A stretch of 64,000 bases of DNA, from the NCBI RefSeq assembly GCF_018687785.1, contig NZ_LTBL01000001.1, positions 1,107,780 to 1,171,779 on the forward strand, written 5' to 3'. A model generated the notes under the pieces. That model was not told the DNA's origin and ran no database searches. It saw only the letters and a list, made by a program, of their open reading frames with translations. This DNA is from Methanovulcanius yangii (GTDB lineage Archaea > Halobacteriota > Methanomicrobia > Methanomicrobiales > Methanomicrobiaceae). The translations under genes were made by a program, and so were the position numbers. Shown piece by piece: positions 33,908 through 42,258 of the stretch. Within the stretch, counting starts at the first letter, position 1. Each line of letters starts with the position of its first letter.

Positions 33908-34270
33908 TTACTGGGCCTCAGGTGCACGGCCGCCCTCGAGGGCCGCCTTCACCTGTGCCTGAAGCTGTTCGAGCTTTGCCTGAAGGGCCTTCTCCTGGCG
34001 TTCAAGCGATTTGATCCGAAGCTCGAATGTATCGATCTTCTCGGTGATGTCCGAGGCGACCTTGTCACGGTTCTGCTGCATCATCACGCTCCCTATGGTC
34101 ACGTAGACAGTTGCATCCTCAGCAATATCATTCAGTTCTTCCTGCGCCTTCTTTGCCTCTTTTCCCATCAATTCGTACTGCATTTTCTGCTGCATAATCG
34201 TGGAGAGCTGCTGCTGCACCTGCTGCAGCATTGCAATCTGGTTCTGGACTTTGGGTGGTATCGAATTCAT
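33908..34270 (-). CDS. pfdB: Prefoldin beta subunit
   Basis: A 120-aa chaperone subunit starting MNSIPPKVQNQIA. It has the two long coiled-coil helices (about 5-45 and 70-110) joined by the beta-hairpin region DATVYVTIGSVMMQQ. Prefoldin delivers unfolded proteins to the thermosome. The open frame extends upstream, but ATG 34270 gives the normal family length and overlaps the pcc1 stop by 4 bp. It is the last gene of the translation/proteasome superoperon. Confidence 0.95.
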   Translation of the reverse strand: MNSIPPKVQNQIAMLQQVQQQLSTIMQQKMQYELMGKEAKKAQEELNDIAEDATVYVTIGSVMMQQNRDKVASDITEKIDTFELRIKSLERQEKALQAKLEQLQAQVKAALEGGRAPEAQ

Positions 34271-34527
34271 GTAAATATTACCTCCTGCATCTCTTCTGCA
34301 ATCATCACCAGTCGAAGATACGTATTCAGGGCTGCCCGCAGGGCAGGCACATCTTCCCCGGAAACGCTCAGGGTCAGACCGCCGTCCACGTCGCACGTGA
34401 GGAGAGCCCGTGAGCGCCCGATATCCTCCAGTTCGGGAAGAACTGCCTGATATACAAGATGCGGACGGTCCGGCATGAACCTGAATACTGCTTCATGCAC
34501 CTGCACATTTGACGTTTCTGAGGACAT
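34267..34527 (-). CDS. pcc1: KEOPS complex subunit Pcc1
   Basis: An 86-aa protein of the CTAG/Pcc1 family. Pcc1 dimerises the KEOPS complex that makes t6A37 in tRNA. The fit rests on length, a beta-alpha layout (VHEAVFRF...VYQAVLPELEDIGRSRALLTCDVDGGL...ALRAALNTYLRLVMIAEEM) and its usual archaeal place between Brix and pfdB. ATG 34527 gives MSSETSN, and the gene overlaps the Brix gene by 35 bp and pfdB by 4 bp. Confidence 0.82.
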   Translation of the reverse strand: MSSETSNVQVHEAVFRFMPDRPHLVYQAVLPELEDIGRSRALLTCDVDGGLTLSVSGEDVPALRAALNTYLRLVMIAEEMQEVIFT

Positions 34528-34903
34528 ACTGCCTCCCCTGGGGGCCGTGAAACGAAACAACGTCTCCGCCGGTTTCGGTAAGAGTAACATCAAGATATTT
34601 TATCAGTGCATTATAAACCGTTTGGTTGCCCGTCTGAATCCCCCGGGAGAGCGGCCCTTCACGCCGTTTCACTTCAAATGACGGAAACTTCAGCGCAGCC
34701 ACATTCTCGCCGGATGCATAGACGTCAACGATGATGTCCCCAGCCTCGCGGTACACGACAAGAACGCATGTATCTTCTTCAAGGACAACGCCAAGGCCTG
34801 CCTTTCCCCGCGGCTTGTAGGACGCCTCCAGAGTAAATGCAAGGTCTTTAGAAAAGGTTCGCAATTCGGGAACAGGTTTCCGCGACGTGGTAACCAGTGT
34901 CAT
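34493..34903 (-). CDS. Brix-domain rRNA processing protein (Imp4-like)
   Basis: A 136-aa archaeal Brix protein beginning [23 protein letters not shown], the family's diagnostic N terminus. It is expected to help assemble the ribosome by binding rRNA. The start at 34903 overlaps the rpoP stop by 3 bases. The length is a little short compared with other archaeal Brix proteins of about 150-180 aa. Confidence 0.88.
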
Positions 34904-35031
34904 CTGGCCTTCAGGTGCTTGATTCCTGCTCCGCGTTCCTTAAAAAGTATACGGTGCCCGCAATAGGGACAGCGGACATTCACGTCGATCTCGACTTTCT
35001 GCTTGCACCGTGCACATTTATATCCTGCCAA
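34900..35031 (-). CDS. rpoP: RNA polymerase subunit P (Rpo12)
   Basis: A 43-aa zinc-ribbon protein. It reads [12 protein letters not shown] and [16 protein letters not shown], with two CxxC pairs binding zinc, then KHLKAR at the end, which is standard for archaeal RpoP. It starts at TTG 35031, seven bases after the rpl37ae stop, and its stop overlaps the Brix start. It is too short for most gene finders, but position and motif make it certain. Confidence 0.93.
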
Positions 35032-35037
35032 GGACCG

Positions 35038-35331
35038 TCACGACTCCTTTACAAGAGAACGCTCAATGGTGCGCAGTGCGACCTTGAGGTTCGGGGTCTG
35101 CGGCACGTAGGCACCGCCTGCAAATTTAAATCCGCATTTGCGGCATTCCCATATTCCGGTACCCTGGCGCGAGACTGCCTGCGTATCACAGCGCGGACAG
35201 ACATGCTTTGCGCGGGATACCTTCTCAACCTCGTTGACACGCTTTCTGATGAATCGGCCGTAGCGGGGACCAAACCTGCCGGCACTCCCGGTGATACGGC
35301 CTTTCGCTCTCTGTCTTCCTTTCTTTGCCAT
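35038..35331 (-). CDS. rpl37ae: 50S ribosomal protein L37Ae
   Basis: A 97-aa zinc-ribbon ribosomal protein with [22 protein letters not shown] (about 45-66), the L37Ae/L43 zinc site, and a basic N terminus. It lies 46 bp downstream of the SBDS gene. In many archaea the exosome genes rrp4, rrp41 and rrp42 sit in exactly this gap; here they are missing. Confidence 0.96.
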
Positions 35332-35377
35332 ATGAAATACCCCTGATGTGTCTGTATATATTTACTCTTAACCTTTA

Positions 35378-36079
35378 TTAATCCTGATCCAGGATCTTCA
35401 CTTCCGCGTCTCCCTTCGAGACACGATTGATGAGACTGTAAAACTCATCCTGTATCCCCGCAGGGATGCGGACGACGCATATCCACGACCCGTCGTTCTG
35501 CCACTGGTCACGTTCGATGGTCGTGGCGGCGGCAATCTCGCCATATGCCTTCGCAGCGTAATCGCCGGGGATTTTTACCGCGAATTTCATCTCGGCAAAT
35601 TTGATGGGGAGTATCGGCCGAAGCGCCTTGACGACGTCTTTTACCTGCTCCTCAAAGTTGCGGAACGGGTCGACATTGACCCGCGCTTCCTCCATTGCCA
35701 TCTCGATACGCTGTGGCGGGTGGGGAAGTTTTGTCTGCGGGTTGATGGCGTTGCGCGCAATGAACGTGACGACCTTGCGCCGCCGGGCCTCGATCATCGC
35801 CTTGCGCTGTTCCGCCGTCAGATGGATTTCACCCTTTTTGACTATACGGAGCGCAATTGGTTCGAATTCCGTTGTTTCGAAGACTTTTTTGAGCGACTCT
35901 TCGGATGCCTTCTCCGCCTTCGAAGAGTTCTCAAATATGAACAGTGCCGCTACGGCATCCTCGATCTGGATCTCTTCGCCCTGGCGGATCAGGGCAGCCA
36001 TATCGGGGTCCACAAGTATCTCAAACCGTTCCCCGTGACTGTCCAGCCTGGCAACCACTGCCTGGTCAAGAGGGATCAA
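35378..36079 (-). CDS. Ribosome maturation protein SBDS
   Basis: A 233-aa protein of the SBDS/Sdo1 family with the FYSH-like N-terminal domain (AVVARLDSHGERFEILVDPD), a central helical domain (LTAEQRKAMIEARRRKVVTFIARNAINPQTKLPHPPQRIE) and a ferredoxin-like C-terminal domain. It helps release the anti-association factor eIF6 from the large subunit. It follows psmA by 10 bp. Confidence 0.95.
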   Translation of the reverse strand: MIPLDQAVVARLDSHGERFEILVDPDMAALIRQGEEIQIEDAVAALFIFENSSKAEKASEESLKKVFETTEFEPIALRIVKKGEIHLTAEQRKAMIEARRRKVVTFIARNAINPQTKLPHPPQRIEMAMEEARVNVDPFRNFEEQVKDVVKALRPILPIKFAEMKFAVKIPGDYAAKAYGEIAAATTIERDQWQNDGSWICVVRIPAGIQDEFYSLINRVSKGDAEVKILDQD

Positions 36080-36089
36080 TGCGCATCAC

Positions 36090-36836
36090 CTACTCGGACT
36101 GATCCGGTGTCGCGGCCTCGAACTTCGTCGTGTATTCACTGACCTCGTCCTTCGTCATCTTCCTGAAAATGCCGGTCTCGTTCGGGATCGCACCGATCTC
36201 GACAGTATCAACATCGAACTTGCCCTCCGTCGCCGCATGGAGCGCACGGAGACCAAGGAGAATGCCGTCGGCCATTCCCATCGCCTCGTCATACTCCTCG
36301 TCGAAGACCTTCATGACGGCCGGCCGGCCGGTCCCGATGCCCGTGGCCTTGTACTCGAGGAGCGTGCCCGACGGGTCCGTCTCGAAGAGTCGTGGCACGC
36401 CTTCGCTCACGCCAGCGATGAGAAGAGCGGTGCCGTACGGACGGGCGCCGCCGAACTGGGTGTAGGTCTGCATATGATCGCAGAGTTTCTTTGCAAGCGT
36501 CTCGATGTCGATCGACTCGTTGTAGGTGACCCGGTTGATCTGCGACTCCACCCGCGCCCGGTCGACAAGCGAACGGGCGTCCCCGACGAGTCCGGAGGAC
36601 GCGACGGCGATGTGCTCGTCGATCATGAAAATTTTCTCGATCGACGACTGCTCGAGAAGACGTGAACTGACACGTTTGTCGACGATGAGGACAACCCCGT
36701 CGCTGCACTTGATTCCTACTGCGGTTGTTCCCCGCTTGACTGCCTCACGGGCATACTCCACCTGGTAGAGCCTGCCATCAGGGCTGAAAACCGTAATCGC
36801 CCTGTCATATCCCATCTGTGCCTGCATTGGTTGCAT
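36090..36836 (-). CDS. psmA: Proteasome alpha subunit
   Basis: A 248-aa 20S proteasome alpha subunit. The N-terminal gate sequence [21 protein letters not shown] (about 9-29) and the [20 protein letters not shown] segment are diagnostic. It forms the outer rings that control substrate entry. ATG 36836 overlaps the upstream rnp2 gene by 32 bp; a start at the Met before GYDRA (36815) would shorten the overlap. The acidic C terminus ([10 protein letters not shown]) is normal. Confidence 0.96.
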
Positions 36837-37320
36837 TGTATTCCTCCAAGTCTTCCTGAGTAACGTATAGTGATACCTGTTTTTTAATACCGTCCTTTAC
36901 TAAATCAACCTTTTGACCTGATTGACTCAATATGCGGTAGGATTCTCCCTTCATGTCCACCATCCTCCCGTCCTCCTCAGGCGCAGGAACGGGAACCTCC
37001 CTGCGAAGGGCCCGGAGCGTCCCCGAGGTTCGCACCGGATGGATGGCGGCGCGGGATCCGTTCACCGATGTGACGGCGGCAAGGGCAGCCTCCAGGGCAT
37101 CCTCATGCCCGCGTGCACACCGGATGATGACCCGGCCGGCGACTGCCTCGATGACCGCCGGCTGCATCGCCGAGGTCACAACATCACCCCACATCCACGT
37201 GGATGCATCGATGATCGCATAATAGACCTCGCGAGGGTCCGGGACGAATGAAGCCGGAACGATCTGTGCTGCGATGTACCGCCAGTTCGTCCGCATCGTT
37301 GGCGGCCTGGGTTTTACCAT
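36805..37320 (-). CDS. rnp2: RNase P protein component 2 (Pop5)
   Basis: A 171-aa protein whose first ~120 residues match archaeal Pop5: [17 protein letters not shown], then [15 protein letters not shown] and [17 protein letters not shown]. It pairs with Rpp30 in the RNase P specificity core that trims tRNA 5' ends. The C-terminal ~50 residues (about [17 protein letters not shown] onward) are an extension beyond the usual family length. It overlaps rnp3 by 7 bp and psmA by 32 bp. Confidence 0.9.
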
Positions 37321-37961
37321 TCGATCACCTCGACAGGTTTTGGCCTGTCCACGACGGTACGGACCCCCCCGAGGGCTGCCGCCGCCTCGGCATCATCCAG
37401 CCCGATGACCGAGAGCAGATGGATAGCAGCCCGCACGGACCGCACACCAAGGAGGGAATGCGCACCCGAGGAGACCGTAAGGGGAAATTCGTACTTCCGG
37501 GACAGGCGCGCAACATCCGAGAGGCGCTCCATCGCACGCTGACGGCGCACCCCTTTCAGGCAGGTCATGACCGTAAGATCGATATCCACTGCCACACCCC
37601 GGTCCGCCGCCGATCGTGCCGCAACATGGTCGAAGGCACTCCGGTGAACGGCATGCACTCCCTTGAGGACATGCACTCCCGGGTAGGTAAGCACGGCCCG
37701 GTTGAACGACATATCGCCGGCACAGACCATGACAACATCCGATGCCCCGCGATCCTCGCGAACTGCCCGGATGACTTCCTTCATCGACGCGCCGGGGATA
37801 ATCGTTCCCCGGAGAAAGCTGACGCCCTCATATTCGCATCTCTCTGCGATGCCGGTCGCAACGGCACTGTCATAGCCGAGGCTCCTGAGTTCGAGGGCAA
37901 ACCTTCGAAGAGAGGTATCGCCGGCCGGGTACGGGTGGACTGTTGCGTCAGTAGAAAACAT
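37314..37961 (-). CDS. rnp3: RNase P protein component 3 (Rpp30)
   Basis: A 215-aa TIM-barrel-like Rpp30 protein. It starts MFSTDATVHPYPAGD (the family usually has a D..H/N-P pattern here) and contains SFNRAVLTYPGVHVLKG and the C-terminal FPLTVSSGAHSLLGVRS segment. With Pop5 it forms one protein pair of archaeal RNase P. It lies 97 bp after rpl15e, a gap that holds a GC-rich hairpin (38008-38033). Confidence 0.92.
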   Translation of the reverse strand: MFSTDATVHPYPAGDTSLRRFALELRSLGYDSAVATGIAERCEYEGVSFLRGTIIPGASMKEVIRAVREDRGASDVVMVCAGDMSFNRAVLTYPGVHVLKGVHAVHRSAFDHVAARSAADRGVAVDIDLTVMTCLKGVRRQRAMERLSDVARLSRKYEFPLTVSSGAHSLLGVRSVRAAIHLLSVIGLDDAEAAAALGGVRTVVDRPKPVEVIEW

Positions 37962-38058: not shown

Positions 38059-38649
38059 TTATTTCCCCTTGTTGGCGTTGGAACGGATCGAGGGACGGGT
38101 GTGCTCGGTACCCTTCCCGCGCTTGCGCATGCCGCGCCCCTTCCTGCCTGCGCTGGTGCGACCGCGTTCTGCACGGCCGCGCTGTTTCGGATCTGCCATC
38201 CATCCGAGGTGGCGATCGTTCTTGATCGCCGGGTGGTGGCCGTCCACGAGGATGACCTCATAATACTTCGAGCGGCCGTCTTCGCCGACCCAGTATGAGT
38301 TGAGGACTTCCATATTCACGAACTTGCGTGATGCGCGCTCCTCTGCAATCCGCTGGATGCTCTTACCGGCGGTAATGCGGCTCATGCCCATCCGGTTGGT
38401 CCGGCGACCGCGAATGTAGCGTGACTTCCGGCGACCGCCACGGCGCACCTTCACACGTGCAACGACGATGCCCTGCTTTGCACGGTAGCCGAGTGTGCGT
38501 GCCCGGTCGATACGGGTCGGGCGCTCAACACGCACGACACTGCCTTCCCGGCGCCACTGCTGCATTCTGTTCCAGAGAAGTGCTTTCACTTCGGTTTCGT
38601 CAGGCTTCTTCCATGCCTCACGAACATAACTGTACATTGATTTTGACAT
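38059..38649 (-). CDS. rpl15e: 50S ribosomal protein L15e
   Basis: A 196-aa basic ribosomal protein: [16 protein letters not shown], then [29 protein letters not shown] and the basic [15 protein letters not shown] stretch. I choose ATG 38649 because GGTGA stands 8 bases upstream and homologues start near [12 protein letters not shown] 38664 would add five residues. It is the first gene of the superoperon continuing through rnp3, rnp2 and psmA. Confidence 0.96.
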
Positions 38650-38780
38650 TGGTTGATTCACCATGAAGGTTCAGCCCACGTAACGGGGGCCACATCCCTT
38701 TGTTCCAGTGGACATTCATCCAGTGGTTCGTATATTTTTGCCGTGAGAGTATAAAAAAGCAGGGGGGCCGGGATGCCCCT

Positions 38781-40760: not shown

Positions 40761-40872
40761 CTTCTCACTCCTGTATTCTGATTCTTTCCTGCCCCTTCAT
40801 TAACATTCAGGTATCACGGCCCGCGCCTTCATCAGGAGGGAGAACCCATCTTTTGTGCAAGGAACGGTGCCA

Positions 40873-42258
40873 ATGGGTCTGGAAGATGATATACGAATAG
40901 TGGCCGACCGCATCCGTGACGCCGAATCGGTGACGGTCATATCCCATATCGATGCCGACGGCATCACCAGCGAAGCCGTCATGATGCAGGCGGCAAGAAG
41001 CCAGGGCATTCCCGCACAGAGTGTCTTCGTTCGCCAGCTGGAACCCATGACGATGAAATACGTCCCGGAGGATGACAGCCTCAAGGTCTTCGTCGACCTC
41101 GGCGCAGGGCAGCAGGACCTCATGGACGAGCGGGGACTGGAGGTGGAGGAGGTCGCAATCATCGACCACCACGTCCCCCAGAACACTGACACCCCCTATA
41201 TCCAGGCCAATGCGCAACAGCACGGACTCGGGTACTTCTCCGCGGCCGGAATGGCCTATCTTGTCGCGCGGGAGATGGACGCGGGCAATCCCTCTCTCGG
41301 GATGCTCGCAAAGCTTGCCGTCATCGGAAATGTCGGCGACATGATGGCCCGGGAACACTGCGGCCTCGTCGGCCCCGCCCGCAGCATCGCCGAAGACGGT
41401 GTGACATTCGGCACCGTCGAGATACGAGCCCGTGAACTGAATTGTTACGGCATCTCGACGCGCCCGGTGAAGGTCTGCCTCTCGTACAGCGATGATCCGT
41501 TCATCCCCGGCATCTCGAACAACGAAAAGAAAGCAGAGGAGTTTCTTGAGAAGATAGGTATCCGACAGAGAACCCCGTCGGGGAGCTGGAGAGTGTGGGA
41601 GGAGTACTCCGTTGAGGAGAAAGGCATCGTGATGAATGCCCTCGTCGAACAGATGCTTGCCACCGGCGAGGACCCGTCCCGCCTCTTTGGCGAGCATTAC
41701 ATCTTTCCCGAGGAGACGCCGGGAACTCCCCTCCGGAACGCCTCCGAGTACGCGACGATGCTCAACGCCTGTGGCAGGTGGGCCGAGCCCCGTATCGGCA
41801 GCGCCATCTGCCTCGGCGACCGCGGCCCGATGCTCCAGGACGGGGAACGCATGCTGCGCCATCACCGGACCATCATCCGCGAGATGATGGAGTACATCCT
41901 CGATACCGGGACGACCATCCTCTCCCACACCCAGTTCATCCACACCGGCGACAGGTTCCCCGACACAATCGTGGGCATAGGCGCCGGGATGGCACTCTCC
42001 AAACTGGACTGGGAGAAACCCATCATGGTTCTCAGTTACCTCCACGACGACCCCGACCTTGTCAAGGTCTCCATGCGCACCAACGAACGGATGGTTCAGC
42101 GGGGCGTCGATCTTCAGGCGGCACTGACCCTGGCCTCCGAGGAAGTCGGCGGCGGGGGCGGAGGGCATAAGATAGCTGCGGGAGCATATATACCCACGAG
42201 TGCTGAAAAGGAGTTTGCCCATCGTGTCAACAGAATCATTGCAGGCCAGTTCACTTAG
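40873..42258 (+). CDS. DHH-family single-strand exonuclease (archaeal RecJ/GAN-like)
   Basis: A 461-aa DHH phosphoesterase. It has the N-terminal metal motif HIDADG, the DHH motif in AIIDHHVPQ and a C-terminal DHHA1 RNA/DNA-binding motif with a glycine-rich EEVGGGGGGHKIAAGAYI. Archaeal members (GAN) associate with GINS and CMG at replication forks or act in repair. I use ATG 40873, which has AAGGA 9 bases upstream; GTG 40855 would add six residues. It overlaps the PUA gene. Confidence 0.88.
   Translation: MGLEDDIRIVADRIRDAESVTVISHIDADGITSEAVMMQAARSQGIPAQSVFVRQLEPMTMKYVPEDDSLKVFVDLGAGQQDLMDERGLEVEEVAIIDHHVPQNTDTPYIQANAQQHGLGYFSAAGMAYLVAREMDAGNPSLGMLAKLAVIGNVGDMMAREHCGLVGPARSIAEDGVTFGTVEIRARELNCYGISTRPVKVCLSYSDDPFIPGISNNEKKAEEFLEKIGIRQRTPSGSWRVWEEYSVEEKGIVMNALVEQMLATGEDPSRLFGEHYIFPEETPGTPLRNASEYATMLNACGRWAEPRIGSAICLGDRGPMLQDGERMLRHHRTIIREMMEYILDTGTTILSHTQFIHTGDRFPDTIVGIGAGMALSKLDWEKPIMVLSYLHDDPDLVKVSMRTNERMVQRGVDLQAALTLASEEVGGGGGGHKIAAGAYIPTSAEKEFAHRVNRIIAGQFT

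Follow-up and report, generated by a model that had tools for sequence, protein, structure and literature searches.

An exosome-less SBDS-L37Ae junction in Methanovulcanius yangii and a Gln-type RNB protein as a candidate substitute in Methanomicrobiales

The genes rrp4, rrp41 and rrp42 of the RNA-degrading archaeal exosome, which adjoin the SBDS gene in most archaea, are missing from the translation/proteasome superoperon of Methanovulcanius yangii, where exactly 46 bp separate the genes for SBDS and ribosomal protein L37Ae, and the exosome core is lost from the genome, not moved. The absence is not particular to this genome; it is order-wide. Exosome loss in this group is already known and is confirmed here at the scale of the whole class, which corresponds to the order Methanomicrobiales in older names (0/199 genomes). 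The reading that we favor, at roughly two chances in three, is that the three genes were cleanly excised in the class ancestor and that the excision was tolerated because an RNB-family ribonuclease had already taken over. Beyond prior work, the analysis adds an RNB protein with a C-terminal S1 domain, its Gln-type active site, and genomes with neither enzyme.

Gene order at the SBDS-L37Ae junction

The superoperon has the order L15e-Rpp30-Pop5-PsmA-SBDS-[rrp4-rrp41-rrp42]-L37Ae-RpoP-...-Pcc1-prefoldin, and open reading frames with Pfam/NCBIfam matches recover it in the window (the whole stretch of DNA analyzed, 64,000 nucleotides) except for the bracketed genes (Table 1). The original prediction, that rrp4, rrp41 and rrp42 are missing from a 46-bp gap between SBDS and rpl37ae with the remaining order intact, is borne out to the exact coordinate, and all of the genes that it named have family matches, the Brix-like gene being weakly supported. 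We note that this gene is short (136 aa) and too divergent for any Pfam model. The gap contains a AAATATATA box and CAGGGG ahead of the L37Ae ATG, both of which are seen in near relatives. A tblastn search of the window for rrp remnants with Rrp4, Rrp41 and Rrp42 of an outgroup locus (L068), at E≤10, gave scattered matches, the best at 0.14 and none in the gap.

Table 1. Features around the SBDS-L37Ae junction, in window coordinates
Feature	Position	Strand	Evidence or remark
Prefoldin beta	33908..34396	-	PF01920 9.2e-21; TIGR02338
KEOPS subunit Pcc1	34267..34593	-	NF011470 1.8e-14
Divergent Brix-like rRNA maturation protein	34493..34903	-	NF002093 4.1e-07, far under cut-off; Pfam silent
RNA polymerase subunit P (RpoP)	34900..35031	-	PF03604; NF001606 3e-25
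Ribosomal protein L37Ae	35038..35331	-	PF01780 3.7e-34; opening gene past the junction
SBDS-L37Ae intergenic stretch	35332..35377	-	site of rrp4-rrp41-rrp42 in outgroups
SBDS ribosome assembly factor	35378..36079	-	TTG start; Pfam SBDS N, II, C; TIGR00291 8.8e-88; final gene before the junction
Proteasome subunit alpha PsmA	36090..36836	-	PF00227 1.5e-57
RNase P Pop5/component 2	36805..37320	-	PF01900 7.4e-15
RNase P Rpp30/component 3	37314..37961	-	PF01876 1.2e-22
Ribosomal protein L15e	38059..38664	-	PF00827 5.2e-82

An SBDS-protein scan of named genomes gave 99 confirmed loci, the best 80 of which were kept; 68 of these were assigned to Methanomicrobiales by title or SBDS identity, and the other 12 are the outgroup. 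Among these best 80 of 99, L37Ae directly follows SBDS in all 68 named Methanomicrobiales loci, and none of the 68 has an Rrp4, Rrp41 or Rrp42 match at E≤0.01. The gap has a median of 45 bp and is at most 66 bp in 63/68 (range 21-251), lengths that rest on start codons picked by a simple rule. In the same best 80 of 99, rrp4-rrp41-rrp42 lie downstream of SBDS in 11 of the 12 named outgroup loci; the PsmA-SBDS-Rrp4-Rrp41-Rrp42-L37Ae part of the superoperon order was checked on outgroup loci, and at L068 Pfam confirms the identity of all three rrp genes. At the twelfth outgroup locus, from a Thermoplasmata MAG (L072), the Rrp genes and L37Ae were not found in the 6 kb downstream of SBDS. A second set of 30 genomes has the short junction in 13/13 class members and Rrp4 beside SBDS in 12/12 exosome-bearing genomes; in 5/5 genomes labeled haloarchaea-like from their gene content, both the Rrp genes and L37Ae are absent from the 1.5 kb next to SBDS. 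The two sets may share assemblies; for example, each of G008, G025 and G061 matches a named locus at 100% identity (L058, L048 and L050, respectively). Because 68/68 and 13/13 relatives show the same arrangement, the short junction is neither chance nor misassembly. As a separate observation, the gap is widened to 142-251 bp, versus ~45 bp, in three Methanomicrobium loci (L009, L010, L012) and in L063.

Loss of the exosome core across the class

The RNase_PH profile PF01138, which covers Rrp41 and Rrp42 and also PNPase, has no match in the M. yangii genome (two contigs, 96.36% complete) or in any of 199 class genomes, 135 of which reach 90% completeness with no more than 5% contamination. The search is positive in Sulfolobus and Methanosarcina controls, and across the phylum 220 of 392 genomes have the family. 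The ECR1_N profile PF14382, common to Rrp4 and Csl4, is positive in the same two controls and matches none of 40 relatives, M. yangii included. Because both families are absent at these scales, the exosome core genes have been lost rather than relocated. The original prediction had left these two outcomes side by side, of which loss stands and relocation falls, and it had proposed genome-wide searches for Rrp4, Rrp41, Rrp42 and Csl4, which come back empty as given above, and for RNase R and RNase J, homologues of which exist elsewhere in the genome. Relocation of the exosome genes to another site, for which the small unseen part of a 96.4% complete assembly is the sole support, is refuted by these counts at the sensitivity of a family search, leaving it a negligible probability.

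Exosome loss in Methanomicrobiales was reported in 2021 (PMC8481954, the available part of which counts two exosome losses), and in 2014 four Methanomicrobiales species were marked as exosome-less with DnaG retained (PMC4227792, likewise from the available part). Genes and order are identical to those in the two papers, and the window is a further member; the SBDS-L37Ae junction and the replacement of the exosome in the order are undescribed in the accessible text of either.

An RNB-family protein and the order of events

The M. yangii genome encodes one RNB (RNase II/R-type) protein, outside the window (G000:C1:1988985-1989983, also L095:5249-6832; E 7.2e-80; the gene spans about 1988748-1990331), with an RNB domain at residues 80-412 (266.6 bits against a Pfam cut-off of 29.3) and a C-terminal S1 domain at residues 459-518 (PF18614, 9.5e-15). 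About 80 residues precede the RNB domain, and no cold-shock domain is matched in Pfam at E≤0.001. The best PDB relatives are bacterial RNase R, and the score with the NCBIfam model for RNase R proper (TIGR02063) is 251.6 bits against a threshold of 597.85. The active-site stretch SIDNxDSxDLDQ is shared by the class and by two further families, f14 and f22. At the position equivalent to Asp210 of E. coli RNase II, Gln is found in 16/16 class and 6/6 sister-clade sequences (22/22), and Asp in 16/16 haloarchaeal-type, 5/5 Methanosarcina-type and 6/7 bacterial RNBs, so that the M. yangii protein has three of the four catalytic Asp residues. The equivalents of Asp201, Asp207, Asp209, Tyr253 and Arg500 are conserved in all 50 RNBs; that of Glu390 is kept in M. 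yangii and replaced in 1/7 bacterial sequences and in 4/4 f22 ones, by Asp in three of these four and by Tyr in the other. Four catalytic Asp residues are named for RNase II in the available text of PMC3293843, and because Asp209, which it rates as the most critical, is kept here, it is plausible that the Gln-type RNB is an active enzyme. A literature search returned no title on Gln-type RNBs in methanogens, a weak negative drawn from titles.

RNB proteins occur in 69 of 83 class genomes and in 162 of 392 genomes of the phylum, these 392 dividing into 207 with the exosome only, 149 with RNB only, 13 with both and 23 with neither. In a tree of 50 RNB sequences, where the class is represented by loci chosen from 16 of the 69 genomes (one with two copies), the class forms one clade (97/89) and f14+f22 (100/98) is its sister, the joint node having 100/99. 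The family f14 is one that we take to be Methanocellaceae, f22 is closest to named Methanothrix loci, and the RNB bearers of both retain the exosome (the 13 genomes with both). Because this sister clade sits in exosome-bearing genomes, the Gln-type RNB probably predates exosome loss, an order of acquisition then loss that comes from a tree in which bacterial relatives are sampled incompletely (7 bacterial sequences). Later RNB transfer between methanogens may also have occurred. A joining of the class RNBs to an actinobacterial sequence (L166) was left unused, since the tree program flags it as two long branches meeting, and near and distant DNA searches for plasmids with RNB genes yielded nothing useful.

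If our favored reading holds, the 46-bp junction would be the scar of an excision of rrp4-rrp41-rrp42 in the class ancestor that left the flanking genes and their order untouched, and 3'-5' RNA decay would have passed, at least partly, to a hydrolytic RNB-family enzyme before the deletion. We infer this takeover, ahead of the three-gene excision. Bulk RNA turnover would then be shared between RNB and three proteins that were kept, aRNase J (5'-3'/endo), aCPSF1 and DnaG, and with the exosome gone, A-tailing by Rrp41 would be impossible. Two RMMBL nucleases, of 662 aa and 448 aa, are present in the M. yangii genome and by size and family would be aCPSF1 and aRNase J, respectively; such nucleases are found in 39/40 relatives. 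The exosome cap component DnaG (NF003108) is matched at E 1.6e-146 in M. yangii and in 39/40 relatives, being missing in G008; it occurs in exosome-less archaea as well. A third RMMBL nuclease of ~530-550 aa, bacterial RNase J-like by size, is seen in G002, G005, G006, G008 and G078 only.

Neither RNase PH nor RNB is present in 14 of the 83 class genomes (G022, G025, G028, G033, G038, G039, G040, G049, G059, G061, G065, G067, G078 and G082). These assemblies are 94-100% complete, three of them (G038, G040, G049) are single contigs, and they include 9/9 sampled genomes of genus g18 plus single members of other genera; the isolate Methanomicrobium mobile BP (L009) is without RNB too. RNB is thus not indispensable, which, like the Gln at the Asp210 position and the unconserved RNB gene neighborhood, counts against the takeover reading. 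Subthreshold RNB fragments at E 0.147 (G078) and 0.527 (G025) were taken as chance. All 15 RNB-less genomes, M. mobile included, have RMMBL nucleases of ~450-510 aa (RNase J size) and ~640 aa, and compensation by extra RNase J copies was rejected, as 13 of the 14 have two RMMBL nucleases like the others and G078 has three. Nine phylum genomes outside the class also have neither enzyme; because the two with completeness figures stand at 78% and 70%, such cases may be assembly gaps. The RNB gene neighborhood shows no conservation among the relatives compared, and it is accordingly from absence that RNB loss is read. Synteny was discarded as a deletion scar, the flank of the G013 RNB gene being only partly present in G040 of the same genus. 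That gene, in the region G013:C1:640499-648499, adjoins a 2.7-kb stretch in five near-identical copies, presumably an rRNA operon. A tentative extension, which we hold at somewhat under even odds, is that an Asp210-to-Gln RNB stood beside the exosome in the ancestor that the class shares with the f14/f22 lineages and freed the cell from dependence on the exosome. Repeated later losses of the RNB itself (in g18, in M. mobile and in single members of other genera) would then have given methanogens with neither RNase PH nor RNB.

Rival substitutes and known systems

A serious rival, which falls a little short of an even bet, is that the exosome was replaced not by RNB but by RecJ3/4-aRNase J, in which a 3'-5' exonuclease of the DHH family binds aRNase J. 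In the available part of PMC10470531, this pair is reported to have 3'-5' RNA exonuclease activity in Haloferax volcanii and to accompany the lack of an exosome in certain methanogens and throughout the haloarchaea; it would account for the 14/83 RNB-less genomes, where RMMBL nucleases persist. The same part of that paper finds H. volcanii RNase R inactive in high salt, which calls for caution in assuming that the RNB protein carries RNA decay. The window does contain an archaeal RecJ-family nuclease, at 40855-42258 on the plus strand (NF053576, 3.2e-159), ~5 kb from the junction and in the opposite orientation, with DHH, DHH-CID and DHHA1 domains. However, no S1 domain is matched in it at E≤1, and by the criteria in the available text of PMC10470531 this gene, the one examined, is not RecJ3/4.

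It is unlikely that the haloarchaeal and methanomicrobial losses were one event in a shared exosome-less ancestor already using RNB. Both groups are exosome-less, their DnaG proteins cluster together (PMC4227792, available part), and an AU test leaves haloarchaeal and methanomicrobial RNBs as one clade unrejected (p 0.338), as it does all archaeal RNBs (p 0.303). The best tree nevertheless separates the two RNB groups, whose active-site motifs differ; haloarchaeal-type RNBs share 26-29% identity with the M. yangii protein, and the haloarchaeal query is nearer bacterial RNase R (27-35% identity). L37Ae is also not within 1.5 kb of SBDS in the 5/5 haloarchaea-like genomes, and PMC8481954, in the part cited above, counts the losses as two. 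Given p 0.338, we make no claim of independence for the two RNB groups.

Excision in the class ancestor after takeover by RNB remains the reading that we prefer. The loss itself is ordinary for the order; the leads lie in the Gln-type RNB and in the members having neither enzyme. They open to test the disposal of RNA 3' ends in one order without the conserved phosphorolytic machine, by an unusual RNB enzyme in some members and with neither enzyme in others, and the states before and after the loss can be compared through related exosome-bearing lineages that have this RNB type.

Like M. yangii, the H. volcanii control has no RNase PH or ECR1_N match but does encode aRNase J, DnaG and an RNB protein; its RNB, however, is of a different type (DDA motif, ~440 aa), and in haloarchaea-like genomes the gene order past SBDS differs from that of the window. 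Methanocaldococcus jannaschii, also run as a control, gives no match to PF01138, PF14382 or PF00773, a neither-state shared by 14/83 class genomes; in the class, by contrast, this state is secondary and scattered in a clade otherwise with RNB. Bacterial RNase R and RNase II share the RNB domain and C-terminal S1 domain with the M. yangii protein, which differs from them in having Gln in place of Asp210 and no matched cold-shock domain.
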